A stretch of DNA of 34,289 bases from a virus. The stretch lies in the IMG/VR virus record IMGVR_UViG_3300046009_004257, positions 1-34,289 of that record, one strand, 5' to 3'. The position numbers were made by a program, and so were the translations under genes. The notes below the pieces were generated by a model that made no database searches, was not told where the DNA came from, and saw only the letters and a program-made list of their open reading frames with translations. This document shows, in pieces, positions 7,516 to 28,288 of the stretch. Within the stretch, counting starts at the first letter, position 1. Each line of letters opens with the position of its first letter.

Positions 7516-7518
7516 CCC

Positions 7519-10500
7519 ATGGCAAACTTTGAGCTACAGTTTCCGCTTGGTGGACTAAACGACAATGTCGCGCAGTCCAAGCAGCCTAGCGGAACTACAA
7601 ACGAAGCAATCAATGTGCGGGGGCAAGACCCCATCACAGGACGCATCCGTGGTGCTCAAAGAAGTGGGCTTACAAAGTATGTAGTTGAGTCGATGGAGGC
7701 ACGTGTCAAGCGGTTTGAGAAGGTTGTGTACGACAACCGTCAACTGCGGTATGTGCCTTTAGACTCATCCAATATTAAGTTGATTTGGGAGAAGGCTAAC
7801 AACAACTCAAACGCCAGCACCTATTGCGTTGTGGACTACAAAGAAAATGTTTATGTAGTTGACGCTGGCCGCACGGTGCAAAAGTTTAACAAGAACGGCG
7901 TGCTTGTGTACACATTTGCACCAGCAGGCTTAGAAGATGTCAATTTGTACATCCGTGGTTTAGCTGTAGATGATGCAGGCGGTGTATGGATTGGAACAGG
8001 TCACAAAAACGCTGCTGACCTAGCAATTAGCCCATCGCAGCTTGCAAATTTGACATCTTTAAGTAAAACACGAATCTGGAAATATAAAGAATCTGAATCA
8101 GATGTTCCTCCTGTTTTGGATTATGCATTTGAACCAAAGTTGACAATTGAAAAATTGGTTTTACAGCAAGGAATGCTGTATGCAGCAGCTAATGATCCAT
8201 TGCTAGAGGTGGGCTATGTTGTAGCTTACGATGAAATTTACAGTACAGGCATGGAAGAAGCGGCTCGTAGAAAAATGCCGTATCCATTGTGCGATATTGA
8301 TGTGTTAGCTGACGGAAAAGTTTGCTTTACTTCTCCAGTTAACCTAAATCGTTACGAAAAACATTCACAACAATATCCAAATTACAGACCAACTGCGGTC
8401 GATTGGACTCCAGCTCAGATTCCTAATGACAAACTTTGGTCTTGGTATGACGCTTCTCAAATGGAAGGCGTAACTGACAATGAACGAGTTACGGCTTGGT
8501 TTGATGTAAGCGGTGCAGGACGCAACTTAGGCTGCACGCTTACCGAAACGGGGCCAAAGTACTTAGCAACTGGCTGGGCTGGTCAGCCATGTTTTGATTT
8601 TGATGGTGCTTCGCAACTGTATACCGTTGGAGGACAGCCGACAACACCTCAGTCTAGCGATGGTTCTGCTTCAGCGTTTCCTAATTATGCAAACGCCAAA
8701 TGGGCTATGCACATTGTGTTTAGGCCACAAGTAGCAGAAGATGAAAATCCGATTACAGCTCCAACTTATTTGTGTGGGGTTGATACATCGTTGCCAGAAA
8801 AACATGATTTGCATGTAGCTGTACACAAATTACAAAACCTTATGTTTCCTGGGCAAGTCAACCCAAATAAGGTTTTATTGTATGCTACACCAGATAGTGC
8901 GCTTTCTTGGAGTAAATTGTCTCAAGGTTACAATGGGACTAACGTACAAGAAAATCCCAATCCACCGTTTGCGACAAGTGGAAATCAAATGTCATACATT
9001 GGCGCTGGAGCTTACAAATTTCCCGCGCCAGCAACTTTGTCAACAGTTAACAATGCTAGTGTTTTAACTATTATTTATGCAGTTGGATCAGGCGATGGCA
9101 CTACTGAACTTGAATGCCATTATCGTTTTAATGGACAGCCTATTGACCGTTGGCGTGGAGTGCAAATTAGTGCTTCTGCTGGTTTTTATTTGGGTCGTCA
9201 AGCGCCTGGCCTGTCTGCATCAACAACTAACTGGTTTAAAGGTCAAGTTGCAGAAATCATCACGCTGCACAATTTAGACCAATCATATGTTCCACAATAT
9301 CCGCGCACATTAGGTTTAGCGTGCAAAGCGCTAACTCAAACATTTACAGCTACTAAAGACACATATTCCAACAACGGATTAGGCCAAGGAGAAGAGCCAA
9401 ATTTAATTTCGCCTTACTATACTAGTACTACGGGAAATACATTCCCATATTTGTATTTTAATTATATTTTGCTTTGCGATCCAGTTAATGGAGTTGATTT
9501 GTTAAGAGGTGATGTAGTAGAAATTTACGGGCAAATTCGTGGCGTTTTAGGGCCAAGACGAGAATACACTTATCCCGATCAAGGTGATTCATTTGATACA
9601 TATTATACTGGAATGCCAATTACCTATCCATTTACGTGGGGCGGCAGTTCAACTACTGCTATTGTAAATCCTGCAAGCCTACATAGCGCCGCAGCAACAT
9701 TTGCTCCTAACATTACTAACGCAAATGCAACGCTGTGCGAAAAAATTGAAGGCTATTTAGCGTGGAAGTGGGGCATTTGGCATTTGCTGCCTAAGGGCAA
9801 TCATACGCCGCCGCAACTTGCCATGAACACGACCTACGTTTTTGGCAACTGGCCGCATCCGTATCGCAATGCGCCGCCGAGTTCTGTGGACACGGACACC
9901 GTTAGCAAAGCCGCTGTGATTGCTAGTCCGCTAGCAGTTGCTGGATGCCTTGAGTCAATTGACGGCCCGTATCGCTGGGTTGTAGACGGTTTAAGTGGTT
10001 TTGGCGCAGGCGTTGGTTTGCGTATTATGGCAACCGAAGCTGCGTTTTATACTATGGGTGATCCGCAGTTTACGGGTTCTACAAACGATGGCACGTACAG
10101 TTGGCCGAATGTTAACGGCAACGGTCGCAAGTTGGTTTACAACGCGGCTACTCAAGTTGTTTCTGATGCGTGGTCTGGAACGTTAGCTAGTTCTAGTACA
10201 ACTGCTATTAGCGCAACATCCGACTACATTCCGCACTTGTCTAAAGATGCGTTTGATAATGTGTACTACCCGTTCACCTTTGCAGGTGGCGCATACGGTG
10301 TCGGCTGGTCAATCGTAGGCAAAGATGCAGGTAACACGCCGATTGCCCTGTTGTCTAAGGACACCAATGGCGACGTTGTTTTACAGGCTGCGCCTGAGTT
10401 TGTGTCGCCAGAATATCGCATTGGAAATAGCATTTCCGCTGATTTTCCAAGTATTCCTGACCCATTAGATCCCGACACTTATCCGCGTGCAGAAAATGTC

Positions 10501-11883: not shown

Positions 11884-12886
11884 CCCCAAGCGTATTGGCT
11901 TATCTGGGCAAGCACGCGGTATCGACCCTCAACGCCAACGGCGCAACTCGCTGACAACAGACGAGACGATTGCCGCGCCGCTGACGCTAAACGAACGAGG
12001 GCAGATTACGCTTGCGCTGACGGGGCCGTTTACGCTGGACAAAGAAGGTGCGCTGGTACTGAACATCGCGCCGCCGTTGACGGTAACCAACAATAGCCCG
12101 TTGACCTTGTCGTTGCAGACGGACACAACGCTCAAGACCGCAAACGGCAAGCTGACGACAAATATTTCTACGGCCACACCGCGTGCGCCAGGCTTGATGC
12201 CCGCGCTAGACGGCGATACTTCTAAGTTTTTGTCGGGCGACGGCGTATATCGTGCGCCAAGTTACCCGCTTCCGCGCTTAGACGAGTGCGCACCACCGAC
12301 AGACACTACAAACTTAGATAGTTCAACTACTGCACATGGACTGCTTCCAAAGCTCTCTGGTGTCGCTACTGAAGTTTTGCTTGGCGATGGCACTTGGGCA
12401 ACGCCGCCAGGTCCTAGTGGCACAGTAACAAGCGTATCTTTGTCTGCGCCAACGGGGTTAATCGTTAGCGGTTCGCCTGTTACAAGTTCAGGATCCTTAG
12501 ATTTAACTTTTGATGTTGGATATTCAATTCCAACAACGAGCAGCCAAGCAAATTGGGATAGCGCATATGCAGCTACATCCAGTCTTGGAAATTCAGCTAA
12601 TTTAAATGTTGGAACAACTGCTGGAACTGTAGCGGCTGGCGATGACTCGCGCTTCGTTACCGACCTCGGCTACACGGCGGCGACACGCGACCTCACGAGC
12701 AGCACGGGCACAGCGGTAAATTTACCGCTGTTTACCGACACAGAAGACGGCCTAACTCCTGCGTCTGGCGGCGGCACAACCAACTTCCTACGCGCAGACG
12801 GCACTTGGGCAGCTCCCGGCGGCGGCGGTGGTAGCGGACTAGACCAGCCTGCGGTCATGGCCCGTATGGCGTTCGGAGGATTCTAA
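11876..12886 (+). CDS. Tail fibre with adenovirus-shaft-like repeats
   Basis: A 336-residue protein. I start it at 11876, where AGGAAGGAAGCGTA gives a good ribosome site and an 8-base overlap with the nozzle gene; an in-frame ATG at 11849 lacks one. After a basic N-terminus, residues 35-99 form four 15-17-residue repeats (PLTLNERGQITLALTG, PFTLDKEGALVLNIAP, PLTVTNNSPLTLSLQTD, TTLKTANGKLTTNIST), the pattern of the triple beta-spiral of adenovirus fibre shafts. Three later modules carry the phage-fibre motif FLxGDGxWxxP (118-128, 168-177, 304-314), with a GTVTSVSLS segment between. It ends in a Gly run and VMARMAFGGF, a tail that may serve as an attachment peptide. Its role is host recognition or carrying a receptor-binding protein. 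Confidence 0.75.
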   Translation: MADPKRIGLSGQARGIDPQRQRRNSLTTDETIAAPLTLNERGQITLALTGPFTLDKEGALVLNIAPPLTVTNNSPLTLSLQTDTTLKTANGKLTTNISTATPRAPGLMPALDGDTSKFLSGDGVYRAPSYPLPRLDECAPPTDTTNLDSSTTAHGLLPKLSGVATEVLLGDGTWATPPGPSGTVTSVSLSAPTGLIVSGSPVTSSGSLDLTFDVGYSIPTTSSQANWDSAYAATSSLGNSANLNVGTTAGTVAAGDDSRFVTDLGYTAATRDLTSSTGTAVNLPLFTDTEDGLTPASGGGTTNFLRADGTWAAPGGGGGSGLDQPAVMARMAFGGF

Positions 12887-14452: not shown

Positions 14453-15133
14453 ATGTTTGATCCGATCACATGGGGCGGAGTTGCTGCTGCTGGTGGCATT
14501 TTAGGTGGTTTGTTTGGCAAGAAAGACCCTGCTAAAAAACAATACAAAGATCTACAAAAGCTGTTTGCTCAAGGAAAAAAAGACCAAGACTGGATGTACG
14601 GTCAGGCACGGCAACAGCAAGAAATGATTTTGCCCACGCTGCAAAAGGGCTTTGCCTCGGCTAATAAGTTCGCTGACATGTACGGTCGTTCGGCGCGGCA
14701 AGGCGCATACGATCAGTCTAAGCAGCTTTCGGGGCAGATGCAGCAGTCAATGACCCAGCGCGGGTTGTACAACACGACTGCGTTTGACAACGCTTCACGA
14801 GGCATTAGCAGCGACCTTAGCCGCACGTTGATTGGTATTGACGAATCAGTTGCTGGCATGAGAGGTCAACTAGCACAAGCGCAAGCATCAGCAGAAGCTG
14901 GCGCGTATGGTGCAATGTCTGGTTTTTATCAAAACTGGGCTTCTGCTAATACTGGTTTATTGGCAGCACAAGCGGGGACGCAAGCTAATGTTCAGTTCCA
15001 AGATCCAAATGCATGGGCAGGTAGCTTAACTCAACTTGGCGGTACGCTATTGGGTTACGGAATTAAATACGGCGGCGGTGGCGGCTATGACAACGGCACT
15101 AGCGCATTTGGCAACAGCCCAACAATTTTCTGA
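14453..15133 (+). CDS. Internal virion / DNA-ejection protein (small, gp14- or gp7-like)
   Basis: A 226-residue protein. It begins with a short hydrophobic Gly-rich segment (WGGVAAAGGILGGLFG, residues 7-22), followed by a long Gln/Ala-rich helical region with several QQQ clusters, and ends in Gly-rich low complexity (YGGGGGYDN). This matches the first, smallest ejection protein of podoviruses, which is packed in the head and inserts into the outer membrane to extend the DNA channel. A GAGGG site precedes the ATG. It starts the run of three virion-internal genes that ends with the giant protein. Motifs such as RGLYNTTAFDNASRGISS recur in phage proteins of this position. The assignment is by composition and gene order. 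Confidence 0.65.
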   Translation: MFDPITWGGVAAAGGILGGLFGKKDPAKKQYKDLQKLFAQGKKDQDWMYGQARQQQEMILPTLQKGFASANKFADMYGRSARQGAYDQSKQLSGQMQQSMTQRGLYNTTAFDNASRGISSDLSRTLIGIDESVAGMRGQLAQAQASAEAGAYGAMSGFYQNWASANTGLLAAQAGTQANVQFQDPNAWAGSLTQLGGTLLGYGIKYGGGGGYDNGTSAFGNSPTIF

Positions 15134-15155: not shown

Positions 15156-17495
15156 ATGGCACTAATTATTCGTCCTAACGGTGGCATTAACAACGCAATG
15201 GCTGGCCTTGCTGCGGGCTTTGCTCAAGGCATGCAGCTTGGCATGGAAGCTGAAAAGCTGGATTTAGCGCGGCAGCGTCAAGCCAAAGAGCTACAGCTTG
15301 CCGAACAGCGTGCAGCGTTGGAGCTAGCGGCAGAAGAACGTGCCAAAACACAGTTTAGTCAGCAGCAAGAGCTATTTGCTCAAGCGCAAGAAGAGCGTGC
15401 AGCTGGCAAAGAAGGCATGGCCCTGCTAGGTCAAGCTGCTGATTTGCGAGGACAGATTCAAGGTGGCGCAGCCAATATGCCAGGTGTGCCGCAGTTTCCT
15501 ACGCAACCGGGTCAGCCTAAAAACATCATGGGTGCATTTAACAACATGATGGGTGGATTAATTAAAAAAGGCCAATACGCTGGTGTACAACAAAATTACG
15601 AAAAAGCTATGCAGCAGGCAAGTGCGCTTGCTGGCAAGATGAATCCTGATGTAGCCGACAGATATTTGAAAGAGGTAGAACGCCGTAATTTGCTTGTCGC
15701 TGACGATCAAGCGCGACAACAATTTGTGTCTAGCCTTTCGGATATTAAGGCTTTTGGAGGGTTGACGGTTCTTGATCCAGCAGGCAATCCTGTGCAAGAT
15801 CCGCAATTGGAAGCAACTCTTCGGTCGCTTGTAGAACAGGCCGATAACCGCAATGTTCCTCTTTCTAAACTACAAGACCAGCTTGACATTATTTTAGGCA
15901 AGGTTAACGCAAATAATACTCGTGCGCGAACAACGCAGTTTGAACTAGGAACTATTGATCAAAGTATTGCAACAGCAATGCAGGCGAACAACGGCGGTGC
16001 TGTTGCAGCCTTGCAAACAGCGCGTGGTGAATTCACCTCTAATATGCTGTTGACTCCTCAAGAAAAATCGGAGTTGTTGTCTAACGCGCAAAACGGTCTA
16101 GTGCCTGTATTAATTGGCGACAAGAAAAAGTGGGTCAGCGCGATCAACAAAGAAGAAGAAGTCAAAAAACTGCAAGCTGAATACGACGAAAACAAAGCGT
16201 TACAAAATCGTCTTACAAGAGCAGAAGCTGAGTTAAGAGAAGCACAGTCTAGTTATTACGGTCGTCGCGACACGGGCATGACTTTAGAAAACGCCCAACG
16301 CAATGCAATTCGCTTGTACAACGAACTGACTGATGATGAACGTTTTGAATTGCAACAACAAGGCATTACTGCGGAAGATTATGTAAACCGCGTAACGCAG
16401 AATTTTATGTCTCAAGGTGGCAACGCTGAACAGCGCGGTGCAACAGCTATGGGACAAACAACAGGGCAAGTGCCGCAGCAGGCTCCATTGCCAGGACAAC
16501 GCAAGGTTACGATTGGCAGCAAGGACTTTGTTGTAACCGAGGAAATTGTAAATCAATTGCAACGCGAAGCTGATGCTATTGGTCTTCCTAAAGGCGATGC
16601 TCGCCGTGAGTATGCTCAATGGCGTTTCCAAAATCAGCAGGCAGATCCCAACGACTTTGGCAAGGCAATGAACAGGGAGCCTGTTGTTAAGCCTAAGGAC
16701 AACGCACCATCTACCGAAGCACCTGTTGTTCCAACAGATAAAATTGTAAACACCGATGAGGCTCAAGCGGCACTTGCTCGAATCAAAGAGCTAGGTTCTA
16801 AAAAACAAAAAACGCTACAAGAAGAAGTTGAGTATTTGCGTTTAAAGAAAAAAGAAACTGAATATACAACGCAAATTGAGCAAGCCAGTAAGCAGGCGCA
16901 AGCAGTTAAAGCTGAGTGGACTCAGGAAAAAACTCGCACAGAAATTAAAGATGCAGTTTGGTTTATGAAAGAAAAACGGTATGGAAATTACTCCCATGCC
17001 AGAACTGAACTGTTAAATATTCCTCAGTCGCAAGAGGAATTTGACCAAATGATGGAGTATGGCCTAAGTACACCAGGCGGACGAGCCTATGCCATGCGAA
17101 TTGGATTGTTAGGGCAGGCAAAAGGTTTTGACGCTAGCAAATGGAAAAACGACATTACAATTTTGTCTGGAAGACAGCTTGATGCTGCAAAAGAAGAATT
17201 CGGCAAAATTGAAAAAGTAGAAAACGAGAAGCGTCTTAACGCGGCGCAGCCTAAAAAAGACGCAGAAGATAGAAAGTTAGAACAACAAAGGCTTGCGGAA
17301 GAATCTAAGCGCATGATGTCAATGGATGATTATCGAGTTGAGCTTGCTAAAAAGTTTAATCTAGACATTAAAACTGTACGCCAATTAGAGGACAAATATA
17401 GCGAAAAAGAAGTGCGCTTGGCGTTTGCTGCTTTAGGCAACAAGGGCGGCACGCTTACTGATTTGCAGAATTATTTGCGTAGGTCGCAGCGGTAA
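15156..17495 (+). CDS. Internal virion / ejection protein (middle, coiled-coil)
   Basis: I place the start at the ATG at 15156 (779 residues, MALIIRPNGG), 22 bases after the preceding stop; the frame is open further up to 15036 but overlaps the previous gene. No ribosome site precedes 15156. An N-terminal Gly/Ala/Met segment (GGINNAMAGLAAGFAQGMQLG) is followed by a coiled coil of Gln/Glu/Ala/Arg repeats (about residues 30-95), then mainly helical sequence. A second charged coil lies around 560-600. The end (LRRSQR) is basic. No lytic transglycosylase motif is seen. This is the layout of the middle ejection protein of podoviruses (gp15 or P22 gp20-like). The DNA is AT-richer than in the capsid genes. 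Function is inferred from position between the small ejection protein and the giant protein. Confidence 0.6.
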   Translation: MALIIRPNGGINNAMAGLAAGFAQGMQLGMEAEKLDLARQRQAKELQLAEQRAALELAAEERAKTQFSQQQELFAQAQEERAAGKEGMALLGQAADLRGQIQGGAANMPGVPQFPTQPGQPKNIMGAFNNMMGGLIKKGQYAGVQQNYEKAMQQASALAGKMNPDVADRYLKEVERRNLLVADDQARQQFVSSLSDIKAFGGLTVLDPAGNPVQDPQLEATLRSLVEQADNRNVPLSKLQDQLDIILGKVNANNTRARTTQFELGTIDQSIATAMQANNGGAVAALQTARGEFTSNMLLTPQEKSELLSNAQNGLVPVLIGDKKKWVSAINKEEEVKKLQAEYDENKALQNRLTRAEAELREAQSSYYGRRDTGMTLENAQRNAIRLYNELTDDERFELQQQGITAEDYVNRVTQNFMSQGGNAEQRGATAMGQTTGQVPQQAPLPGQRKVTIGSKDFVVTEEIVNQLQREADAIGLPKGDARREYAQWRFQNQQADPNDFGKAMNREPVVKPKDNAPSTEAPVVPTDKIVNTDEAQAALARIKELGSKKQKTLQEEVEYLRLKKKETEYTTQIEQASKQAQAVKAEWTQEKTRTEIKDAVWFMKEKRYGNYSHARTELLNIPQSQEEFDQMMEYGLSTPGGRAYAMRIGLLGQAKGFDASKWKNDITILSGRQLDAAKEEFGKIEKVENEKRLNAAQPKKDAEDRKLEQQRLAEESKRMMSMDDYRVELAKKFNLDIKTVRQLEDKYSEKEVRLAFAALGNKGGTLTDLQNYLRRSQR

Positions 17496-17514: not shown

Positions 17515-20500
17515 ATGAACGAACTCGACCAATTCTCCTTCATGGACGAACCGAGCCAAGCGGTGGCATCACCGGCACAGCTTGGCGCAAACGCTTTGGA
17601 TCAGTTTGCCTTCATGGATGAGGAGGCCGACTACACGATTGGCGAGTATTTTCAGCAAGCAGGTAGCAGCTTTGTTAGCGGGTTAAGTGGCACTTTTACT
17701 AGTGCTATTGAAGGCTTGGGCATTGCTATTGAGGGCATGACGGGCGAGTCCAGCATTGATGACTGGGCGCGTGAAACACAGGAATCCATTAACAACGCTG
17801 TCCCTGGCGTAATGGGCTTGCAGAACTCGTGGACGGCCAAGGTGTCTGGCGCGTTTGGTTCGGCAGGCGGCTTTGTGCTTGCATCTGCTGCTACAGGTGG
17901 TTTGGGCGGCGCAGTAGGCAAAGGCTTGTCGGGCGTAAGTATGTTTGGCCGTACTGCGCTGACAGGCGCGGAGGCGGTTGCCGCCGGTGCAAAGGTGGCG
18001 CAGGCAACGCAATTGGTAACCGCTGGTTCTTTGGGTGCGCTTGGCAACGCTGCTGCGCGGTACGACGAAGCACTCATGCTTGGGAAGTCAGAGGAAGACG
18101 CATGGAAGTCTTACTTTGTCGGCATGGGCATTGGTTCGCTGGAAGCCATGCCTGTCGGTCTAAACCGCGCCGCTATGCGTTTGGGGCGCGTTAATAAGGC
18201 ATCTGGCGGTGCGCTGCGCAACTTGACTGTCGGCCAAGTCATGCTGGCTGAGGGCTTAGAAGAAGCTGGTCAAGAGATGCTGTCGGAAGGCTTAAATCAG
18301 CTATCCGACTACGCACTAAGCATTAAGTCAGCCGAAGAAGCGTTTGACTTCCAACAGCTTCTTGAATCGGGCGTGCTTGGCTTCTTGCCTGGTAGCGCAA
18401 TCGGTGGCCTGACGGCGCGGTCTACTATTGCTGCTAACCTTGCGGAAGAGCGCAAGAAGGTCGAGGCCGAAGAGGAAGCCAAGCTCACGGCAGACATTGC
18501 CAAGCAGCGCGAGGAGTTTGAGGCGCAAAAAATTGGCGTGGTCGAGGAGTCGGCCAAGCAAGCACAAGAGTTGGTTGCTGCCGGTGAAGCGGAGTTGGCG
18601 CGACTGCAAGGGCCAGCAGAGGCAGTTGCGGGAACAGAGCCTACACCGATTGGAACGCCAGAGGAAATTGCGGTTGTTGAACAGCAGTTAGAACAAGCCC
18701 GCAAAAACCGCGATGTGCTAGTCGAGCAGCTTCGCGCTGTGACGGCAGCACCTACGCAGGAAGAAAAGCTGTTGCAGGCTGGCGCATACGGTCAAGCTCA
18801 AGCGCGTGCAGAGCAGGCTGGCATGGGCGAGCAGTTCCGTGCTGCCACAAAGCCAGGTGCTGAACGAGTTTTGGCCGCAGAGGAACAAGCAGCTTGGGAT
18901 GAAAGAAAAACCAAATGGGCTAAAGCTCCGATCTTCAAAGAAAAGTACAACTCGCTAAAAGATGCGAAGTTGGTTGTTGCCGCAACAACAGAACAGCAAA
19001 ACGCAGAAAAGATTTTGACCGACCTTGGTGTCAAGGTTGAGTTTATTGATCTAGGCAATGACGATACGGCATTTGAGGGGATTGAGTCTGGCAACACTAT
19101 TTTCTTAAATGCTCGGTTATCTGGCGATGCAATGTTGCGCAAGGTTGCGCGGCACGAGGCATTCCACACTATTTTCCGTAGCAAAGAAGGCCGACAAGCA
19201 TGGAATGCAACCATGCAACGACTCTCGGCTGCTGCGCCTAATGTGTGGGCCGCTGCAAGACAAAAAGCACTTGGCGAGCTTGTTGACACCAAAGGCAGCG
19301 CAGAAGCATTAAAAACAGCCCTGAAAACGCCTGAGGGCGTAGAAGAATTGTTGACCGAGCAAGGCTCGTCTGCCGCAGACATTTTCAGCGCGACCATTGA
19401 CGCGCTTGAGGCAAACCCTGCACTTGCCGAAGAGGTCATGCAGGCTGATCCGACCTTCTTCCAGAAGTTATTGGATTGGGTCAAGACTAAACTGAACAGG
19501 CTAGGGTTTAAGTACGAGACACTAGCTGACGCTGATCGCAAGGCTATTGAGAAGCTCCCCAAGCTGCTGTACCTAACGCAGGCCGGCGAGGTTGAGGTCG
19601 AAGCTGGAGCCAACGAACGCATTGCAGGCGCACAGGTGCTTATGCGCCTGCTTAAGGCCGCAGAGGAAGGCACGGTAGCCGCTGCCTCTGGTCGCGAACG
19701 GCAAGCTCGTGTGTTTGCTACGCGCACGCTAGGTGAACTAGAAGCGGGTAGCGTAATTGATGCCAAGCGGCGCGAACTATTAGAAAAAGAAGAAGCCGAG
19801 GTACGCGCTAAGTACGAAGAGCGTCGCCAGCGCGTTGTAGAAGCTGCACGCAAACGCTTGGCTCGCATTAAACCATCTGACGAAGAGTGGCAAGTAATCG
19901 ACGCTGTAGGCGCGGCAAATACAGAAGAAGCGCAGTTAGCCGCTATTCAGTCGTTGCCTGACTTACCTGACGGGATTACAGACGAAGAACTGCGCAGCTA
20001 TGTGCAGGTGGCTAACGAGGTCTATGACCGCAACCAAGAAAAAGAAGCTCGTCAAGCCGAAATTGCTGAGAATCGCAGGCAAGCCAAAGAACGCCAAGAA
20101 ACTGCCGCAGAAAAATTGCGTGTAGCGCAAGAAGCTACATACAAAAACAAGCTAACTGACCTGCGTGCAGCAGATCCTAAAGGTAATGCGCTAAACCAAA
20201 TTCGGCGTTTGATTAATGCGGGTAGTACCGAAGAGGCAGCGCGTAGCATTGCTCGCGAGTATGTAGGCAAGAACGCAACCGCAGATCAAGTAGACGAAAC
20301 AACGGTTGCGTTGCTAACTGCTGCTGAAAATTTGCAACGCAAAGAAAAAGAAGCGGCAGAAGCAAAAGCGGCAGCAGCGCAAAAGCGTAAAGATGAGGCG
20401 GAACAGCGCAAGGCAACAGAGGAAGCTAATCGCACCCGTCGCCAAGAAGCTCGCGCTCGGCAACAGCGTGAGTTGCTAGAACGCCGCATTGAGGCTGACA

Positions 20501-23500
20501 AAGCTCGCCGTGCAGAAATTGCTGCCAAGCAAGATGAAATGATGGCGCAGGCTTATGCGTTGACGCAGGACAAGCTAGAGCAGCAGCGGCTAGAATTGGC
20601 TGAAAAGACCCGTGTGCAGGAAGCTGCATTACAAGTACAGCGGGAAAAGGTCGAAACGCTAAAACGCCAAATTGCCCAGCGCGAAGAACTAGCAGCCAAG
20701 GCGACGGAGGAGGCTGATAAACGTGCAAAGGAACAAGCTGTGGAGCGTGCGCGGCGAGAAAAGATTGCTGCCGACAACCAGCAAGCGTTGCTGCAAGCTC
20801 GCGTAAAAGCCGCTGAGGCCGCAGAAGCTCGTCATCGCGAATCTATGGCGATGCGGCAGACCGAATTAGCTGAGTACACCCGCTTGCGCGAAGCTGACAT
20901 TGCAGCGCGTCAGGCATTGCTAACAGAGCGCACGGCAGCGCGTGCAGCCGCCGAACAACGCTTGGCTGAGGCTAAGACGGAAGCTGAACGCAAGCAGGCC
21001 GCAAAGGATGCAGAAGCCGCCAAAGCTGCACAGGAAGCCACAGAACGCGATGCGCAGCTTGCTGAAGAGGAAGCTAAAAAAGCCGAAGAGCGCGAAGAAC
21101 GCAAACGACAAAAGCTGCCTACGGTTGTCGCTGGGCGTACCGTGCCAGGGCAATTGCGCGTGGGTGACATTGTCATGTTCCGCAACCGCGCCGCCAAGGT
21201 CGTGGAGGCTACTGGTAGCGGTTTGGATCAGCGCGTCAAATTGCGCCCCATTACAGACGCTGAAAACCAAATTGCGATGGAGGCCGAAGAAGCTGGAACA
21301 AAGGATTGGTGGAACACCATCTCGTTCCTAGGCGAGTGGGTAAAGGTGATGATGAACGATTCACGCATCACCGCACGCATTGCTCGACGCAGCGATGTTG
21401 AGGTGCTAACCGAAGACGGCAAGAAGATGTTTGAACGCCGTCTGGAAGCTGATGTTGCCCGTCGCGAGGGCGACGCGCCGCTGTTCTCAGCTAAAGGACA
21501 AGCCATCACTCCAGAGATGGAAGCCGAGTACATGGCTGCGGCAGAGGCTGGCGATCTGGCAACTGCGCAGCGGATGGTGGATGAAGCGGCACAAGCTGCT
21601 GGGTACACAATTGGCCCGGTTTATCACGCTGGAGAAAAATCGTTTAATGAATTTAAAACATTAGCTGAGCAAGCAGAGGAAACTGGAGAATATTACGAGC
21701 CAGAAGGTTATGACGGTGGAAATCTAGGCATTGGATTCTATTTTACTCCAGACCTAGCTTATGCGGCTAAATATGGAAAAGCGCGCAAGTTTTATTTGAA
21801 GATTGAAAAGCTTTTAGACACAAAAAACACAAAGGTTCAAAAGCGATTTAGTCAGCTGCTAGATGAAATGAACGAAGACTTAGGTGACGTTGCGCAAGGC
21901 GAAGTTATTGATGCTTTGCTAGATGAAACTAATTCAACAGGTGTTGTTGGCTATGGCGTTGGCGGTTTTTCAAATGGCTCTACGGAATACATGGTGCGCC
22001 GTAGCAAGCAAGCTAAATTAGCCGATCCTGTCGCTTACGACAATAACAACAACATCATCCCGCTGTCGCAGCGGTTTAACGAGCAAGTTGACGACATCCG
22101 TTTTTCCGTTAAAGGTCAAGCGATTACACCAGAGATGGAAGCTGAATACATGGCCGCTGTTGAAAGCGGTGACATGAACACAGCCCAGCAGATGGTTAAC
22201 AAAGCAATGGATATTGCTGGAATTGTTATGCCAACTGTGGTTCAACGTCAAACTAATTATGCGGCAGATGTAACAGTTCAAAACAATAGAGCCTATTCGC
22301 CAATTGTACGAGATTTGCTTCGTAGGCGAGCTGAAGGTGAAAATATTACGCAGGCAATGATTAATGAAGCAATTGTCAATAATTTCCCTTCAAGTCTGGT
22401 AAAAGTACCTAATACGGTGGCAGATTTGCCATCTGAAGCTGAGGTTATCAATGCGCTAGACGAAAGACAAAAAGTGCAGCGCATTGAAAAACAATCTATT
22501 CCTATTAACAGTCAAGTAACGCTGCGCCAAGACGTTCCATCGTGGACTCGTAACAAAGTTGGCGTGGTTACTATTCAAACTAAAAACGGCAAAGCCTATT
22601 CGCAGGCAGCAAGAATTTTAAACCCAGATTTTGTTGTAAATGAAAAAGAGTCATTGAAAATTGCTATGGGGGAAAGCAAAAAACCTCATATTGCAATTCG
22701 AGGTACATGGTCGCCTGATCAATCAATGCCGTTTAATTTAAAAAAATGGACGCAGGTTGGTTACAACCCAGATAGACATAGTTTTTATTACGACAGAGCC
22801 ACAATGATTGAGGTTGTTGGCGGATCAGAGGCATATCAAATTGGAAATACTGTTTTTGTTAAAGATGCCAAATACATTAATGACCCTGTGCTTTATGACG
22901 CGCAAGGCAACGTAATCCCGCTGTCACAACGCTTCCAAGATACGATTGACGACATTCGTTACTCGGTAAGAGCTAAAGTTCCTGCTGCCGTTGGCTTTGC
23001 TGGTGGAGGCACGTTTGAGATCGCGTTGAGCGATGTACTTGACACGCAGTTAGCCGTTGAGATGAAACCTGACATTGCCGAAGCGTACAACCGCAACGCG
23101 CAGCGTCCTGCCACGGTTGCCAAGATTGGCGATGTTGATGCCGAAGACTTCAAAGGCAAGGTGCTAGCTCACTTCAGCCCGCCGTGCGTTGACTCGTCGT
23201 TGCTGCGTAGCGGCCAAGGTGTGAACAAGGCCGAGGAAACTGAGCGCGGGCGTGAAGTAGCCAACATTATCCGCGTGGCTCAGAACCCGATTGTCGTTAT
23301 TGAAAACGTTAGGGAATACGGCAAATCGGAAGCGTACAAGCTGATCACAGACGCGCTTACGGAATCGGGCTACACCTGGGACGCGCACGTGTACAAGGCG
23401 CAGGACTACGGTTCGCCCAGCAAGCGTCAGCGGCTGTTTGTTCGCGCTGTAAAAGAAGGCGAGTTGCCGCCGCGTCCTGAGCCTACTCACTCCAACAAGC

Positions 23501-26500
23501 CCACCTTGTTTGAAGCCCCGTATGCTTCGTGGGGCGATGCCATTGCCGATTTGCTGCCCACGCTGCCTGAGTTTGAAGGCCCGCTACCGCCGTATGTGTT
23601 GAAGTCGTTGGCCGCGCAAAGCATCAACCCGAAGTCACCCAGCAAGGCGTACTACATCAGCGGCACGCAAGTACACGGGCTAGCACCTTTGTCGCCGTTT
23701 GATAAGCCCTCGCCTGGCATGGTTGCAAGCGGCGCAGAAACCCCGCGCATCCTTATGCCTGATGGCCGCGTCCTGCGCGTCACGCCTGAGGCGATGAAGC
23801 GTCTTATGGGCTTTGGCGCAGAAATGCAGCTGCCAAGCGATCCGAAGCTAGCCAAGCGCATTGTGGGCAACGGTATCCCCAAGCCGCTGACCCGTGCGGT
23901 TGTACTGCCGCTGCTAGAGTCGCAAGGCGTGCTAGACACGCAAAGTCCGTTGTTTTCGGTAAAAGGCAAGGGCGGCGAAAAGCCTGGCAAACCTGCCAAG
24001 CAAAAACCTGCTACTCGCGTTTCGGCAACTGAAGTTAAGCGTGCTGCGGCGGAATTAAAAAAAGCTCAAGCGCGAGCAGAACGCAGTCGATTAAAAACGC
24101 TACGCGAAAGTATGCGTCGCGTTGAAGGCTTGGCCGCAATTGCAGAAAAAGGCGGCGAGGGCACAGACATCGGTGAGGCACCTGGCACAGCCATCGCTGG
24201 AGCAACTGAGGAAGGTCGAGCCTACACGCGAGCATTGCGCGAAGATATGGCCGACATCCGCGATCAAATCTTGCCTGATCTAAAAGCGGACGACGAAGCG
24301 CGTGCTGAAGCTGTTGCCAAACTTGACGCAGACTACGAAGGCACAAAGCGTCAGCTATACGAAGAGATTACCGAGACTGGCAATGTAAGTGAGCCGTGGA
24401 AGGTGTACGCCACTATGGTTATTGCTGCTCGCGAAGCTGAAGCGGCAACGACAGGTCGCATGACCGTTGACAAATACTTGGCTGCATATGAGGCCGAGGC
24501 GTATGACGCGATTGTCAAACGTGCTGCTTCTGCTGGCCTGCGCGTGCGCAAAGACTCAGTAATGAGCGCACGGAAGCGCAACAAGGCGCATTTGTTTGCT
24601 GAAACCTCGTCGCTACGTCGAGAAATGCGCAAGCTGCGCAAAGCCATCGACACCGGCAATAAAAAGCAACGCGATTCAGCTGAGAAGAAAATTGCCAAAA
24701 TGCGGCAACAGCACGCAGAGGCAGTCGTGGAGTTCTTTGACTCCATGCAGCAGCAAGGCTACGACATTGACGATATGTACTCGTACCTTGCCAAGGGCGA
24801 TGTTGTCAGCTTCTCGCGGTTAGCACGCGGCGCGGCTGACGCTCGCGTGCGTACAGACTTGGCTTCTGGCCGTGTGCAGTCTGCTTGGGATGGCCTGATG
24901 GAAATCCGCTTGGCTTCCATGCTGTCAGGCATGGGAACCCATGTGGCAAACATCACCGGCAACGCCGCCATGCAAACGCTGCGCACTACGCGCCAGCTAG
25001 CTGAAGTCTTGACTAACATGGTCTACCGCGATCCCAATAGCGCGGATTACGGTGACTTCAAAGCCTACATGACAGGTTGGCTGCGGTCGCTGTCGCGAGC
25101 TACGCGCAACTTTGTAATGGCTTATCGCACCGATATGCCGGTGTTTGAGGTCGAGCTTAGTGCAGAGGCCGCGAGTGAGTTTGCTAACCAAACAAACGCC
25201 ATCCCTGGCATCATTGGCCGCATCCTGCGTTTCCCTTCGTTAACTACGCTGCGTGCGTTCGACGAGTTCTTTAAGACAATGGCGGCGTACACGGAAACAG
25301 CCAGCTTGGCGTACCGTGATGGTCGTTCTAAGGGCATCAGCGGGCCTGCGCTAGAGAACTACATCGACGGCGTGCTGGTCAACTACAACGACCCGCTGTG
25401 GCAAGAAGGTTTGGATCGCGCTTTGGAAACCGTGTTCCAAGGCAAGGGCGACAGCCTGACCCGCATCTTGCTGTCAACTCGCGAGTATTTGAACAACAAC
25501 CCAACAACGGTTCCTATCGGCACATACTTGCTGCCGTTCATTAAAACGCCGTTGCAGATTTTCAAAGTCGGCCTGAGTATGCCGATTCACCCTGTGATTC
25601 CGTTGATGCGTTGGATCAATACCTTGCGCGGTATTGAGTACACAAAGGCCCAGCAAGTTACCGATAGTGCAAACGCTTTGATTTCCGCCGGCATGATGAT
25701 GCTTGCCTACGGCCTGCTTGGCGACGATGACGACGACGAAGTGGCGGCTACAGGTGCTGCGCCTGACGAGTACACGGAGCGTGAGCTTATGGCCCGTGTC
25801 GCTCCAGCCTACAGCATTAAAGGCCCTGGCGGTGATTGGTACAGCTATGCACGCATTGAGCCGTTTGCTACGGCCTTCTCGGCTATGGTTGACCTGTCAC
25901 GCGCCCAGCAGCGTTTAATGCGCGACGATGTTCCGGATAAATGGTCACAGTCCTTTGGCATCGTGCTAAACAACGCGCTAGGCCAAATTGAGGATAAGAC
26001 CTTCCTGCGCACAGTTGGCGATGTTGCCAAGATGGTTCGCGACCGCGAGCAGATCAATGTGGCGCGATTTACCAAGGATCTGTTTGTCACGCCGATGATT
26101 CCAAACTTAGTGCGGCAACAAGTTGGCGCAAGCGATCCCTATGTGCGTAACACCTCCGTGCGGGAATACGAGGATGTTTCGGCGTGGGAAGCAGCAATGC
26201 AGGTTGTGTCGTTCCAAGTCTATCCTGACGCTAACCGTCCAGACGCGCCGCCGATCAAGTACGACCTGTGGGGGCGGTCTATCGAGAAGCCAGGGCGCAG
26301 CGAGTTTGCCCGCAACTTCTCGCCCGCCAAACTGGAGTACCAAGAAGAAGACATTCACAAGCTCGACCGTCTCATCGTCACTTTTAACGACAAGGTCGAG
26401 GACGGAAAATTTGGCGGCGATGTCCAAAAGTACCTGCCGCGTGCGGTGGAATACCGCATTAAACGAAACGACAAAGAGTATTTGCTGACCAAAGAAGAGT

Positions 26501-26694
26501 ACGCCCGCGTGTCTAAAGAGGCAGGCGAAAAGGCAGCTCAGAGGCTACAATACCGCCGCTTAAACTACGATGACCCTACCGAACGGGACATCGAAGTTAT
26601 CAAGGAGCAAATCAGCAAGTCGCGCAAGCTGATTATTGATAAAGTCCTGCGCGAAAGACGGCTCACACAAAACCAAACGCCACAAAACCCATGA
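17515..26694 (+). CDS. Giant polyvalent virion protein: zincin, ART-like, C5-methyltransferase, LPD38-like
   Basis: A 3059-residue protein. Residues 4-12 and 28-36 repeat the motif LDQF(S/A)FMDE. Residues 60-310 are Gly/Ala-rich and partly hydrophobic. HEAFH at 547-551 is a zincin-type motif. Residues 843-1200 are a coiled coil, followed by a small beta-barrel-like piece (1206-1245). Residues 1325-1531 are an ART-like module: YH at 1370, GFYFTPD around Tyr1409, Glu1491. Residues 1531-1817 are a second module with the same borders but another core. Residues 1820-2142 are a cytosine-C5 methyltransferase: FAGGG 1828, PPC at 1889-1891, ENV 1930, RQR 1971, GNGIP 2118. Residues 2463 to about 2900 resemble LPD38 (LASMLSG, THVANITGN, RAFDEFF). 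Polyvalent proteins are thought to enter the host with phage DNA. The gene follows two ejection genes, so virion location is likely. Confidence 0.82.
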   Translation: MNELDQFSFMDEPSQAVASPAQLGANALDQFAFMDEEADYTIGEYFQQAGSSFVSGLSGTFTSAIEGLGIAIEGMTGESSIDDWARETQESINNAVPGVMGLQNSWTAKVSGAFGSAGGFVLASAATGGLGGAVGKGLSGVSMFGRTALTGAEAVAAGAKVAQATQLVTAGSLGALGNAAARYDEALMLGKSEEDAWKSYFVGMGIGSLEAMPVGLNRAAMRLGRVNKASGGALRNLTVGQVMLAEGLEEAGQEMLSEGLNQLSDYALSIKSAEEAFDFQQLLESGVLGFLPGSAIGGLTARSTIAANLAEERKKVEAEEEAKLTADIAKQREEFEAQKIGVVEESAKQAQELVAAGEAELARLQGPAEAVAGTEPTPIGTPEEIAVVEQQLEQARKNRDVLVEQLRAVTAAPTQEEKLLQAGAYGQAQARAEQAGMGEQFRAATKPGAERVLAAEEQAAWDERKTKWAKAPIFKEKYNSLKDAKLVVAATTEQQNAEKILTDLGVKVEFIDLGNDDTAFEGIESGNTIFLNARLSGDAMLRKVARHEAFHTIFRSKEGRQAWNATMQRLSAAAPNVWAAARQKALGELVDTKGSAEALKTALKTPEGVEELLTEQGSSAADIFSATIDALEANPALAEEVMQADPTFFQKLLDWVKTKLNRLGFKYETLADADRKAIEKLPKLLYLTQAGEVEVEAGANERIAGAQVLMRLLKAAEEGTVAAASGRERQARVFATRTLGELEAGSVIDAKRRELLEKEEAEVRAKYEERRQRVVEAARKRLARIKPSDEEWQVIDAVGAANTEEAQLAAIQSLPDLPDGITDEELRSYVQVANEVYDRNQEKEARQAEIAENRRQAKERQETAAEKLRVAQEATYKNKLTDLRAADPKGNALNQIRRLINAGSTEEAARSIAREYVGKNATADQVDETTVALLTAAENLQRKEKEAAEAKAAAAQKRKDEAEQRKATEEANRTRRQEARARQQRELLERRIEADKARRAEIAAKQDEMMAQAYALTQDKLEQQRLELAEKTRVQEAALQVQREKVETLKRQIAQREELAAKATEEADKRAKEQAVERARREKIAADNQQALLQARVKAAEAAEARHRESMAMRQTELAEYTRLREADIAARQALLTERTAARAAAEQRLAEAKTEAERKQAAKDAEAAKAAQEATERDAQLAEEEAKKAEEREERKRQKLPTVVAGRTVPGQLRVGDIVMFRNRAAKVVEATGSGLDQRVKLRPITDAENQIAMEAEEAGTKDWWNTISFLGEWVKVMMNDSRITARIARRSDVEVLTEDGKKMFERRLEADVARREGDAPLFSAKGQAITPEMEAEYMAAAEAGDLATAQRMVDEAAQAAGYTIGPVYHAGEKSFNEFKTLAEQAEETGEYYEPEGYDGGNLGIGFYFTPDLAYAAKYGKARKFYLKIEKLLDTKNTKVQKRFSQLLDEMNEDLGDVAQGEVIDALLDETNSTGVVGYGVGGFSNGSTEYMVRRSKQAKLADPVAYDNNNNIIPLSQRFNEQVDDIRFSVKGQAITPEMEAEYMAAVESGDMNTAQQMVNKAMDIAGIVMPTVVQRQTNYAADVTVQNNRAYSPIVRDLLRRRAEGENITQAMINEAIVNNFPSSLVKVPNTVADLPSEAEVINALDERQKVQRIEKQSIPINSQVTLRQDVPSWTRNKVGVVTIQTKNGKAYSQAARILNPDFVVNEKESLKIAMGESKKPHIAIRGTWSPDQSMPFNLKKWTQVGYNPDRHSFYYDRATMIEVVGGSEAYQIGNTVFVKDAKYINDPVLYDAQGNVIPLSQRFQDTIDDIRYSVRAKVPAAVGFAGGGTFEIALSDVLDTQLAVEMKPDIAEAYNRNAQRPATVAKIGDVDAEDFKGKVLAHFSPPCVDSSLLRSGQGVNKAEETERGREVANIIRVAQNPIVVIENVREYGKSEAYKLITDALTESGYTWDAHVYKAQDYGSPSKRQRLFVRAVKEGELPPRPEPTHSNKPTLFEAPYASWGDAIADLLPTLPEFEGPLPPYVLKSLAAQSINPKSPSKAYYISGTQVHGLAPLSPFDKPSPGMVASGAETPRILMPDGRVLRVTPEAMKRLMGFGAEMQLPSDPKLAKRIVGNGIPKPLTRAVVLPLLESQGVLDTQSPLFSVKGKGGEKPGKPAKQKPATRVSATEVKRAAAELKKAQARAERSRLKTLRESMRRVEGLAAIAEKGGEGTDIGEAPGTAIAGATEEGRAYTRALREDMADIRDQILPDLKADDEARAEAVAKLDADYEGTKRQLYEEITETGNVSEPWKVYATMVIAAREAEAATTGRMTVDKYLAAYEAEAYDAIVKRAASAGLRVRKDSVMSARKRNKAHLFAETSSLRREMRKLRKAIDTGNKKQRDSAEKKIAKMRQQHAEAVVEFFDSMQQQGYDIDDMYSYLAKGDVVSFSRLARGAADARVRTDLASGRVQSAWDGLMEIRLASMLSGMGTHVANITGNAAMQTLRTTRQLAEVLTNMVYRDPNSADYGDFKAYMTGWLRSLSRATRNFVMAYRTDMPVFEVELSAEAASEFANQTNAIPGIIGRILRFPSLTTLRAFDEFFKTMAAYTETASLAYRDGRSKGISGPALENYIDGVLVNYNDPLWQEGLDRALETVFQGKGDSLTRILLSTREYLNNNPTTVPIGTYLLPFIKTPLQIFKVGLSMPIHPVIPLMRWINTLRGIEYTKAQQVTDSANALISAGMMMLAYGLLGDDDDDEVAATGAAPDEYTERELMARVAPAYSIKGPGGDWYSYARIEPFATAFSAMVDLSRAQQRLMRDDVPDKWSQSFGIVLNNALGQIEDKTFLRTVGDVAKMVRDREQINVARFTKDLFVTPMIPNLVRQQVGASDPYVRNTSVREYEDVSAWEAAMQVVSFQVYPDANRPDAPPIKYDLWGRSIEKPGRSEFARNFSPAKLEYQEEDIHKLDRLIVTFNDKVEDGKFGGDVQKYLPRAVEYRIKRNDKEYLLTKEEYARVSKEAGEKAAQRLQYRRLNYDDPTERDIEVIKEQISKSRKLIIDKVLRERRLTQNQTPQNP
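21487..21588 (+). repeat. Module-entry repeat, copy A (inside the giant gene)
   Basis: Codes for residues 1325-1358 of the giant protein (SAKGQAITPEMEAEYMAA and on to MVDEA). It is the entry of the ART-like module. Copy B, 618 bases downstream, codes for nearly the same residues, with synonymous changes at many third positions, so the duplication is not recent. Confidence 0.85.
22024..22107 (+). repeat. Module-exit repeat, copy A
   Basis: Codes for 28 residues, 1504-1531 (DPVAYD..., IPLSQRFN, DDIRFS), that close the ART-like module. The same 28-residue exit sequence with moderate change closes the second module at 22882-22965. Confidence 0.85.
22105..22206 (+). repeat. Module-entry repeat, copy B
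   Basis: Codes for residues 1531-1564 (SVKGQAITPEMEAEYMAA and on to MVNKA), matching copy A at most positions. It opens a second module whose core is not ART-like; that core contains LRQDVPSW, LKIAMGESK and a GYNPDRHSFYYDRAT stretch. Confidence 0.85.
22882..22965 (+). repeat. Module-exit repeat, copy B
   Basis: Codes for residues 1790-1817 (DPVLYD..., IPLSQRFQ, DDIRYS), immediately before the methyltransferase domain. It aligns without gaps with copy A at 22024-22107. Confidence 0.85.
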
Positions 26695-26909
26695 GTGCAA
26701 TTCTCGTTCTTATCCAAAAAATCGCCGGTTCGTCTACCTTCTGGGTCAGCGTGTTGCTGCCTATTCTGAAGGTGTTGTTGGAGAAAATCGGCATCAGCAT
26801 TCCTTGGGAAGCCATCATGGCCGGCCAAGGTGCGTATGGCGTGAAGGAAGCCGCCAGCAAGCTCCAGCCGCTCGTCGCGGCCAAAGTCGCAGCCAAGCAG
26901 CCGGAGTAG
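26691..26909 (+). CDS. Small hydrophobic protein, possible holin
   Basis: A 72-residue protein whose ATG overlaps the giant gene's stop (ATGA). The N-terminal half is hydrophobic (residues 3-34, with FWVSVLLPILKVLLEKIGI), enough for one membrane helix or an amphipathic hairpin. The C-terminal half is Ala/Lys-rich (VKEAASKLQPLVAAK). Small single-helix proteins at the end of the late operon, next to a second small membrane protein, are often holins or pinholins. There is no sequence signature that proves this. The endolysin-like gene of this phage is in the opposite operon (33314-33739), so a lysis role would mean a split cassette. An alternative is a membrane or virion accessory protein. Confidence 0.5.
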   Translation: MSAILVLIQKIAGSSTFWVSVLLPILKVLLEKIGISIPWEAIMAGQGAYGVKEAASKLQPLVAAKVAAKQPE

Positions 26910-26917
26910 CTTAAATA

Positions 26918-27169
26918 ATGCAGGGCCAAATGGAACGCGATGTAACAAAAGCCGTGGTTCCTATCACGGCCCTGTCGGTCATCGCCGGTGCGACATGGTG
27001 GTTGGCTTCTAGCCTGCATGGCGTGGATAGCCAACTCCAGTCGCTGCGGCATGAGCTTGCACAGATTCGCGCTCATAACGAGCAGAACTTGCGCCGAGAC
27101 GAGTTCCGTGCCTGGGTGTATCAACTCAAGGCTAATAACGCGATCATCGTCATCCCTGACCCTAAGTAG
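26918..27169 (+). CDS. Small membrane protein with coiled-coil tail (i-spanin- or holin-like)
   Basis: An 83-residue protein and the last gene of the late operon. A short charged N-terminus is followed by one membrane helix (about residues 12-31, VVPITALSVIAGATWWLASS), then a predicted coiled coil (GVDSQLQSLRHELAQIRAH) and a basic/aromatic end. The N-in single helix with a periplasmic coil resembles inner-membrane spanin subunits, but no outer-membrane lipoprotein partner is seen in any frame here, so this remains a guess. ATG at 26918 is taken as start (GGAG 12 bases upstream); ATG at 26930 with an AGGG site 6 bases upstream is a credible alternative. Confidence 0.55.
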   Translation: MQGQMERDVTKAVVPITALSVIAGATWWLASSLHGVDSQLQSLRHELAQIRAHNEQNLRRDEFRAWVYQLKANNAIIVIPDPK

Positions 27170-27182
27170 ACACAGAGGACGA

Positions 27183-27206
27183 CAACCGCCCATGTCGTTG
27201 CGGTTG
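27183..27206. terminator. Inverted repeat 1 in the convergent gap
   Basis: CAACCGC (27183-27189) pairs with GCGGTTG (27200-27206), 10-base loop. It lies between the stop of the last + gene and the stop of the last - gene. No T-run follows on either strand, so termination is inferred from place. Confidence 0.4.
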
Positions 27207-27218
27207 CCGCCCCCTGCC

Positions 27219-27237
27219 GACAGTCACGATGACTGTC
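27219..27237. terminator. Inverted repeat 2, perfect 8-bp stem in the convergent gap
   Basis: GACAGTCA (27219-27226) and TGACTGTC (27230-27237) pair perfectly around a 3-base loop, 5 bases from the stop of the - strand gene. The palindrome would fold in both transcripts and is the best candidate for a bidirectional stop between the two converging operons, although it lacks a T-run. Confidence 0.45.
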
Positions 27238-27241
27238 TACC

Positions 27242-27841
27242 TTAGCGGTCTACGCTCCAAACTTTCGTTTGGGCGCGGATGTTCTTTGGCCAAGATTCGA
27301 GCTTGGTTGAGACGCTTTGGTCTAGCACTAATACCGAGTTCGTTGGCCTGATTGCAAGGCGACCATTGCAGCCGCGCATGAAAAGATATTCTTTCTGCTG
27401 CTCCGGCTCGCGACTCCAGCCGTCACCAACGGGAATCGCGGTAAACAAGTACCAACCGTAAAGCTGGTCGTCGTTGGCAAACGGATCTGTGTGATACACG
27501 CACTCCATGTTCTGGAGGTAGGTGTACTCGTGCAGCGAGAACTGGTAGCCGGTGCAGTCCCAGAACTGCGCCTCGTGCAAGTCCCAACTGCGATTGCACC
27601 AGATGTCGTCTTTGTCCGTAAACGGCCTAAACGCAATCTCGTGCGGCGGGATGTTGCGCACCACGGCGTTGTCTTCTGTGCGTACATGGCATCCCCAAGC
27701 GCGTGACGGCGTGGAGGACAACCCGAACCATACTACAGGCTCATACGCGCTCGTATCCGCGATGTCGCTGCGCAGGAAGGCCGACCGTACCCAGACATAC
27801 AAGTGTTGCGGCAACGAGCCGCTGTGCGTGTATAAAGTCAT
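27242..27841 (-). CDS. Protein of unknown function, Trp/Tyr/Cys-rich
   Basis: A 199-residue protein at the end of the - strand operon. I start it at the ATG at 27841 (MTLYTHSG). An ATG at 27868 in the same frame would overlap the preceding gene and has no better site; an AGGAGG lies 15 bases upstream of 27841, inside the previous gene's end. The protein is rich in Trp, Tyr, Phe, His and Cys (WDLHEAQFWDCTGYQF, CVYHTDPFAN), without CxxC pairs, signal peptide or membrane helix. It looks like a soluble globular domain. Its place at the operon's distal end suggests an accessory or host-takeover role, which is inference only. I do not recognise the family. Confidence 0.65.
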   Translation of the reverse strand: MTLYTHSGSLPQHLYVWVRSAFLRSDIADTSAYEPVVWFGLSSTPSRAWGCHVRTEDNAVVRNIPPHEIAFRPFTDKDDIWCNRSWDLHEAQFWDCTGYQFSLHEYTYLQNMECVYHTDPFANDDQLYGWYLFTAIPVGDGWSREPEQQKEYLFMRGCNGRLAIRPTNSVLVLDQSVSTKLESWPKNIRAQTKVWSVDR

Positions 27842-27845
27842 GTTG

Positions 27846-28076
27846 TTACTTCGCCACCTCCTTCGCATCCATCACGGCGTTGAAGGCCGCTACGGCTGCT
27901 ACCAAACGAGGCCAATCAGGATGGTTTGCTTGAAGCAAGATCGTCACATTTGGGCAGTCTTGTAGTTCAAATACGCCAATCCCGCCTAGCGACTCGAAAT
28001 TAACCGGGGGGGCGTACAGCCGACATGGTTGCTGCGGTTTAAGAACCACAGTATATTGAGTAGAAAAGTTGCTCAT
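27846..28076 (-). CDS. Small unknown protein, paralogue of its upstream neighbour
   Basis: A 76-residue protein with an ATGA overlap to the preceding gene. Its last 20 residues (RLVAAVAAFNAVMDAKEVAK) match those of the neighbour at 28073-28288 at 16 of 20 positions, and the strand before them (ILLQANHPDW) also corresponds. The N-terminal parts are much less alike. So the two genes are a tandem duplication that has diverged at the N-terminus. The layout is beta strands followed by one C-terminal amphipathic helix, suitable for a small binding protein or a homo- or heterodimer. No function known. Confidence 0.65.
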   Translation of the reverse strand: MSNFSTQYTVVLKPQQPCRLYAPPVNFESLGGIGVFELQDCPNVTILLQANHPDWPRLVAAVAAFNAVMDAKEVAK

Positions 28077-28288
28077 TTGCTTTCCTCCTTTGCATCCATT
28101 GCAGCGTTAAAAGCCGCAACTGCTGCTTCTAGCCGGTGCGCTTCGGGATGACCTTGGTTGGCAAAGACCGCCAACTCTAAAGGGTGTCCTTGGATGTGGA
28201 ACCAATGCGTTCCGTTGCCGGAACAAGACTCCAATCGGAACGGGTAATCTGCGGAAACGGACACCATAACGGTAGCCCTAACACTCAC
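28073..28288 (-). CDS. Small unknown protein, GTG start, paralogue of its downstream neighbour
   Basis: A 71-residue protein. I start it at GTG 28288, which overlaps the previous stop (GTGA) and has AAGGAG 8 bases upstream; an ATG seven codons later lacks such a site. A longer open frame to 28339 would run into the nuclease gene. It has short strands (YPFRLESCSGNGTHWFHIQG), then a C-terminal helix (RLEAAVAAFNAAMDAKEESK) shared with the next gene. The pair is a tandem duplication. The two stops and starts are fused, so they are made from one message in about equal amounts. Confidence 0.6.
   Translation of the reverse strand: MSVRATVMVSVSADYPFRLESCSGNGTHWFHIQGHPLELAVFANQGHPEAHRLEAAVAAFNAAMDAKEESK

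Follow-up and report, generated by a model that had tools for sequence, protein, structure and literature searches.

The window analyzed here is the complete IMG/VR record IMGVR_UViG_3300046009_004257 (34,289 nt, classed as linear), probably a fragment of a phage genome. By profile matches and gene order, a giant open reading frame is preceded by genes for the portal, scaffold, capsid, SU10-type adaptor, and tail and by two genes of ejection type; the matches include an SU10 adaptor, an SU10 portal (weak), a major head protein, and tail components. The two genes directly upstream of the giant have no family match in the profile scan and are called ejection-type by position only. As originally predicted, the giant gene is a single frame of 3059 residues, beginning with ATG and free of internal stops. 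Since homologous giant genes are present in several other viral contigs, 99.9% identical in one of them, chance cannot explain this frame. No DNA near-identical to the window was found in the phage collection searched. Loci with related giant genes, or with giants bearing the tail adaptor described below, are designated by L-numbers.

From the N- to the C-terminus, the protein comprises a zincin-like domain with the motif HEAFH, a coiled coil, an ART-PolyVal module, a module of unassigned family, a C5-cytosine DNA methyltransferase, and a C-terminal domain with a match to a family of internal virion proteins (Table 1). At least two unrelated activities in one polypeptide, the hallmark of polyvalent proteins (Iyer et al., 2017), are represented by the profile matches of the methyltransferase and the ART and by the zincin motif; the setting of the phage-type proteins, near the structural genes of a portal-terminase phage, is represented by the SU10 matches, the head protein, and the gene order. 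These features make the giant a polyvalent protein as Iyer and colleagues define it, and the profile matches together with HEAFH support the original prediction of an ejection-type polyvalent protein with zincin-like, ART-like, and C5 methyltransferase modules at these boundaries.

Table 1. Features of the giant gene and its upstream neighbors, in window positions.
Feature	Position	Strand	Evidence
Upstream small ejection-type gene	14453..15133	+	position; L002 orthologue
Upstream ejection-type gene, likely start MALIIRPNGG	15156..17495	+	position; L002 orthologue
Polyvalent protein, whole gene	17515..26694	+	ORF; orthologues L002, L015, partial in L003, L005, L008
N-terminal short repeat LDQFSFMDE / LDQFAFMDE	17518..17621	+	repeat comparison; copies at 17518-17549 and 17590-17621
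Conserved N-terminal domain, aa 40-330	17632..18504	+	75% identity in L002; kept in six loci
Zincin-like metallopeptidase domain, aa 475-705	18937..19629	+	HEAFH at 19153-19167; AF2 model; structural matches; weak Peptidase_M78
Charged coiled-coil spacer, aa 850-1200	20062..21114	+	sequence; most diverged section of backbone
Border peptide 1, LFSAK	21481..21495	+	motif scan
Head adaptor 1 (ITPEMEAEYMAAAEAGDLATAQRMVDEAAQAAGY)	21505..21606	+	repeat and multi-locus comparison
Cargo 1, ART-PolyVal-type ADP-ribosyltransferase	21607..22023	+	profile match; active-site residues
Tail adaptor 1 (DPVAYDNNNNIIPLSQRFNEQVDDIRFS)	22024..22107	+	multi-locus comparison
Border peptide 2, RFSVK	22099..22113	+	motif scan
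Head adaptor 2	22123..22212	+	repeat and multi-locus comparison
Cargo 2, domain with weak Phage_L5_gp82 match	22213..22881	+	94-97% DNA identity to L008
Tail adaptor 2 (DPVLYDAQGNVIPLSQRFQDTIDDIRYS)	22882..22965	+	multi-locus comparison
Border peptide 3, RYSVR	22957..22971	+	motif scan
Cargo 3, C5-cytosine DNA methyltransferase, aa 1822-2141	22978..23937	+	profile; motifs; L002 comparison
Border peptide 4, LFSVK	23950..23964	+	motif scan
C-terminal domain	24022..26691	+	aa 2551-2863 match PHROG 6651 internal virion protein

In the predicted zincin, HEAFH occupies aa 547-551, and HExxH is kept in three orthologues; the Peptidase_M78 match is weak (E = 0.003, below the cut-off), and the AF2 model, of low confidence (pLDDT 60), places a helix and three strands before the HExxH helix. 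A fold search with this model returned a weak mixed list (Z 3-4.6), in which several entries of zincin type appear alongside the N4 virion RNA polymerase, none of them decisive. Sequence-profile searches of the PDB with the zincin and with the C-terminus gave nothing useful. Among the 81 giants considered below, 67 contain HExxH or HExxxH, vs. 5.6 in shuffled sequences. The coiled coil predicted to follow the zincin corresponds to the charged spacer.

The short repeat at the extreme N-terminus could be a packaging signal, by analogy with P1 DarB. Giants often start with a short motif present in two to three copies within the first 90 residues (33% vs. 11% of random windows score above 30, P = 5e-7), e.g., in L052, L021, L085, L047, L061, L087, and L071 besides the window; such a motif might serve for targeting to the capsid, as in the DarB N-terminus.

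At the other end, PHROG 6651, annotated as "internal virion protein", is matched by the C-termini of all three orthologues (window E = 7e-11, best E = 1e-17), an indirect sign only that the protein may be packaged. The search gave no support to the LPD38-like end originally proposed, with no Pfam profile match at E up to 10 in the three orthologues under HMMER filters that drop weak matches.

The methyltransferase assignment is firm: DNA_methylase (PF00145) matches aa 1828-2129 with E = 2.1e-20 (73.9 bits, gathering cut-off 22), and motifs I (FAGGG), IV (SPPC1891), VI (ENV), VIII (RQR), and X (GNG) are intact, the codon of the catalytic Cys1891 lying at 23185-23187. The Cys, ENV, and GNG are invariant across five embedded C5 enzymes. 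Compared with its L002 counterpart, the enzyme has dN/dS = 0.13, and in most of its length 7-14% of four-fold sites differ, vs. 44-70% in the backbone. The stretch at 23536-23661 (aa 2008-2049), on the target-recognition side, has about 76% amino acid identity to L002, with 38-42% of four-fold sites differing, as if it had been swapped separately. C5 methyltransferases are also embedded in L025 (4236-5177) and L064 (7034-8092), in giants with unrelated backbones; the L064 enzyme comes immediately after a tail adaptor and is flanked by the border peptide on both sides. No helicase was found among Pfam matches of the window giant at E up to 1, so that the adenine methylase and SWI2/SNF2 helicase dyad of the DarB type is replaced here by a C5 match only.

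Two sequences recur around both the ART module and the second module: a head with the consensus ITPEMEAEYMAA.E.GD..TAQ.MV..A and a tail with the consensus D....N.IPLSQRF....DDIR[YF]S. The window copies have 71% identity over 104 nt, and the longest exact repeat within the whole giant gene is 14 nt. The predicted ART matches ART-PolyVal (PF18760) at aa 1369-1504 with E = 5e-4 in the whole protein and E = 1.7e-6 when excised (29.3 bits, slightly below the gathering cut-off of 31.2). For the active-site H, Y, and acidic residue, YH and FYF are present, and the last strand carries a nearly conserved Glu (STEYMV) in place of the Asp of Iyer et al. (2017). The second module had been predicted to have paralogous borders, and its head and tail are indeed similar to the ART module's, although what they enclose is no ART. 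For this cargo 2, dN/dS is 0.16; a chorismate-type fold was considered and rejected (best structural matches Z 2.7, model pLDDT 56).

These borders are general cassette adaptors, judging by their distribution. Of 85 cargoes occupying this slot, 65 match ART-PolyVal at E up to 0.01, and non-ART cargoes between adaptors include window cargo 2, the L002 and L008 cargoes, and several others. The L002 cargo (L002:9524-9958), a region without a Pfam match in the L002 giant, has a GGICDRI ... DHAW ... VDIAP pattern and, by eye, could be a papain-like or transglutaminase-like Cys-His-Asp enzyme. Profile searches with the N- and C-terminal parts yielded few relatives, a tblastn search with the C-terminus found nothing, and the head adaptor retrieved the L002 contig only; the tail adaptor retrieved a wide set. 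Across 81 loci, its occurrences are confined to ORFs of 1300 residues or more (3532 ORFs of at least 100 residues examined), with 95 tails in 81 giants and a head within 350 residues upstream in 88 cases. A search of bacterial assemblies added 53 tail copies, mostly from Clostridia, the others being from Bacteroidota, Verrucomicrobiota, Kiritimatiellae, Armatimonadota, and others (taxa by record title). In L019, L023, L062, L063, and L070, the tail is followed by a second recurrent module start, DSDGN.LS..Q..FFK.SK.RD, which suggests another type of head.

Five pairs of related phages retain the backbone and carry unrelated cargo in the same slot, with breakpoints inside the head and tail adaptors. 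The 8.6 kb that lead up to the slot are 99.8% identical between L008 and L015, but no relationship is seen between the first cargoes of these two phages, whose identity of about 20% amounts to alignment noise. At the same time, the L008 cargo has 95-97% DNA identity per 50-codon bin to window cargo 2 (94.5% over 836 nt), vs. only about 45% between the two giant backbones. In L044 and L055, two consecutive cargoes are replaced, the DNA identity being 97% before and 94% after them, and only the 105-nt tail-head junction between the cargoes is conserved. The pairs L046/L053 and L049/L076 repeat this pattern at greater distance. Finally, the window and L002 differ in cargo and have the methyltransferase in common, which by the divergence given above has been exchanged too.

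Assembly chimeras joined at conserved adaptors could mimic such swaps, the more so as the key contigs are all metagenomic and L008 ends inside an adaptor. This explanation is highly improbable: L044 and L045 come from different samples and are identical over 3344 aa, the window adaptor copies have at most 14 nt exactly in common, the L008 cargo differs from that of the window by 3-5%, and the pattern recurs in five independent pairs. High identity is not restricted to cassettes, a possibility we considered and ruled out. Window positions 7504-12398 are 94% identical to the L002 phage and positions 26684-28090 are 93-98% identical to the L015 phage, the giant gene being far more diverged in both cases. 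Mosaicism in these other blocks means that the cargo bay is not the only place of exchange; the point within the giant gene, on the sequence comparison, is that exchange is cut at the adaptors, not exchange as such.

A further element lies just outside the head and tail, namely a border peptide of about five residues. In the window, the motif [LR][FY]S[AV][KR] has four matches in 3059 residues, all at the four module borders (0.03 expected). L015 has RFSYN three times and RMSYT once at its four borders, and L064 has nine copies of RFALDV; the peptide is thus alike at the borders within one protein and different between phages. When residues following the tail and preceding the head of the same protein were compared against permuted proteins, z was 14.3 (72 viral proteins) and 6.2 (39 from bacterial assemblies), with control regions farther out giving 1.7 and 0.1. 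This lineage-specific peptide at every module border, the general role of the adaptors, and the swapping of cargo between phages all had escaped the original prediction.

The common borders might be recombination tracts without any role in the protein, i.e., short DNA homologies that guide swaps and are homogenized by gene conversion. The location of the breakpoints in the adaptors agrees with this, as do the copies in L015 and L064, which agree in codons above expectation and are partly homogenized, so that gene conversion contributes to the likeness there. However, codons are near random in the window (10 differing vs. 11.4 expected), L031, L074, L026, and L012, and hence in most cases it is the peptide itself that is kept; the 14-nt limit on exact repeats in the window's giant gene also speaks against DNA tracts, and we consider this explanation improbable. 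The conservation of the peptide suggests that it is recognized by something. We give about even odds that a protease of the phage itself cleaves at this peptide.

The domains, the adaptors, the repeated border peptide, and the exchange of cassettes between phages with breakpoints in the adaptors can be read directly from the sequences, and of the domain content and the exchange, taken alone, we are highly confident. A composite explanation, to which we assign a probability of roughly 0.5, would join them as follows. The giant would be a late-made protein of an SU10-like podovirus, probably packaged in the head through the conserved domains at its ends and then ejected along with the DNA. It would act as a carrier with a cargo bay, in which interchangeable enzyme cassettes are held between a constant N-terminal part with the zincin and a constant C-terminal virion part. 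The ART and cargo 2 cassettes have the structure border peptide, head, enzyme, tail, and the methyltransferase lies between border peptides only. Cutting at the border peptides by a protease of the phage itself, in the simplest case the embedded zincin, would free the enzymes. The freed ART may then modify host proteins, as T4 Alt does, and the freed methyltransferase may shield the entering phage DNA from restriction in the manner of P1 DarB. By swapping cassettes, a lineage would change its first-strike tools with the virion unchanged.

Alternatively, the giant may stay whole, with border peptides that serve as flexible linkers or as caps for folding and with adaptors that simply belong to the ART domain. 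A precedent is the N4 virion RNA polymerase, which according to the available text of the polyvalent protein survey (PMC5512222) is packaged unprocessed despite its metallopeptidase domain, and the prevalence of ART-PolyVal cargoes (65 of 85) means that the adaptors could originally have been flanks of ART domains. Yet a generic linker need not match the other borders of the same protein while differing between phages, the border peptide also marks the far side of the methyltransferase, and the adaptors enclose non-ART cargo in the window, L008, and L002. We regard an unprocessed giant as a rather unlikely alternative to cleavage.

Delivery of the methyltransferase, for its part, faces the objection that an ejected enzyme would have to outrun restriction. 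It could instead act in the producing cell, on progeny DNA prior to packaging: the giant belongs to a late structural gene block, and an intact C5 enzyme would act wherever it is made. On the other hand, L002 and L015 additionally have a free-standing C5 methyltransferase, so the embedded enzyme is not required merely for C5 activity, which argues for a special, delivered role; moreover, delivery is the role for which fusion to a domain of internal-virion type is most easily understood. Action in the producing cell seems to us doubtful, at about the level of an unprocessed giant.

Head-packed effectors with ADP-ribosylation activity and diversity between phages are familiar from the internal proteins and Alt of T4. 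Those are encoded by separate small genes, whereas the effectors of the window are cassettes in one reading frame. Among the polyvalent proteins as covered in the available text of Iyer et al. (2017; PMC5512222), the closest counterparts are likewise giant multidomain proteins from terminase-portal genomes with zincin, ART, and methyltransferase domains. In that text, processing by the zincin is already proposed, cassette exchange is raised only as a possibility (for Verrucomicrobium kinase loci), and neither adaptors nor border peptides are described; its methylases are adenine-specific and nearly always fused to SWI2/SNF2 helicases, unlike the helicase-free C5 enzyme of the window. P1 DarB is a very large virion-packaged methyltransferase protein with an N-terminal packaging signal, thought to protect entering DNA (PMC9024508). 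The window giant resembles it in size and in bearing a methyltransferase, and is probably packaged as well; DarB is an adenine methylase-helicase without an ART, whereas the window combines an ART, cargo 2, and a C5 enzyme. Giants of the N4 virion RNA polymerase type are ejected and contain a metallopeptidase-like part, to which the putative zincin of the window may correspond (its model matches the fold of N4 gp50 2129-2363 weakly, Z 3.9), but no RNA polymerase was found in the window giant by profile scans. MuF and other polymorphic toxins (PMC5576092) also are phage-borne and combine a constant carrier with a variable effector. Their variable part is C-terminal, whereas here several variable cassettes per protein are internal and bounded on both sides, with conserved N- and C-terminal parts. 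Adaptors and border peptides are not described in the open-access journal papers searched; the grammar of head, tail, and border, together with the demonstrated exchange, is new relative to these searchable texts, and unseen literature may hold parts of it.

Polyvalent proteins have been known as mixtures of domains, whereas their cutting into active enzymes and their diversification had been open questions. Using the grammar described here, effector modules in giant phage proteins can be found, delimited, and predicted, and their processing and exchange become directly testable. With a C5 methyltransferase occurring in a polyvalent protein, the DarB idea now also covers helicase-free cytosine methylation. 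More tentatively, and with somewhat less confidence than we place in cleavage within the window itself, ejection giants of many lineages may be polyproteins with a cleavage-site code, in which each lineage has its own border peptide and its own protease, and exchanged cassettes keep the border peptide of the recipient.
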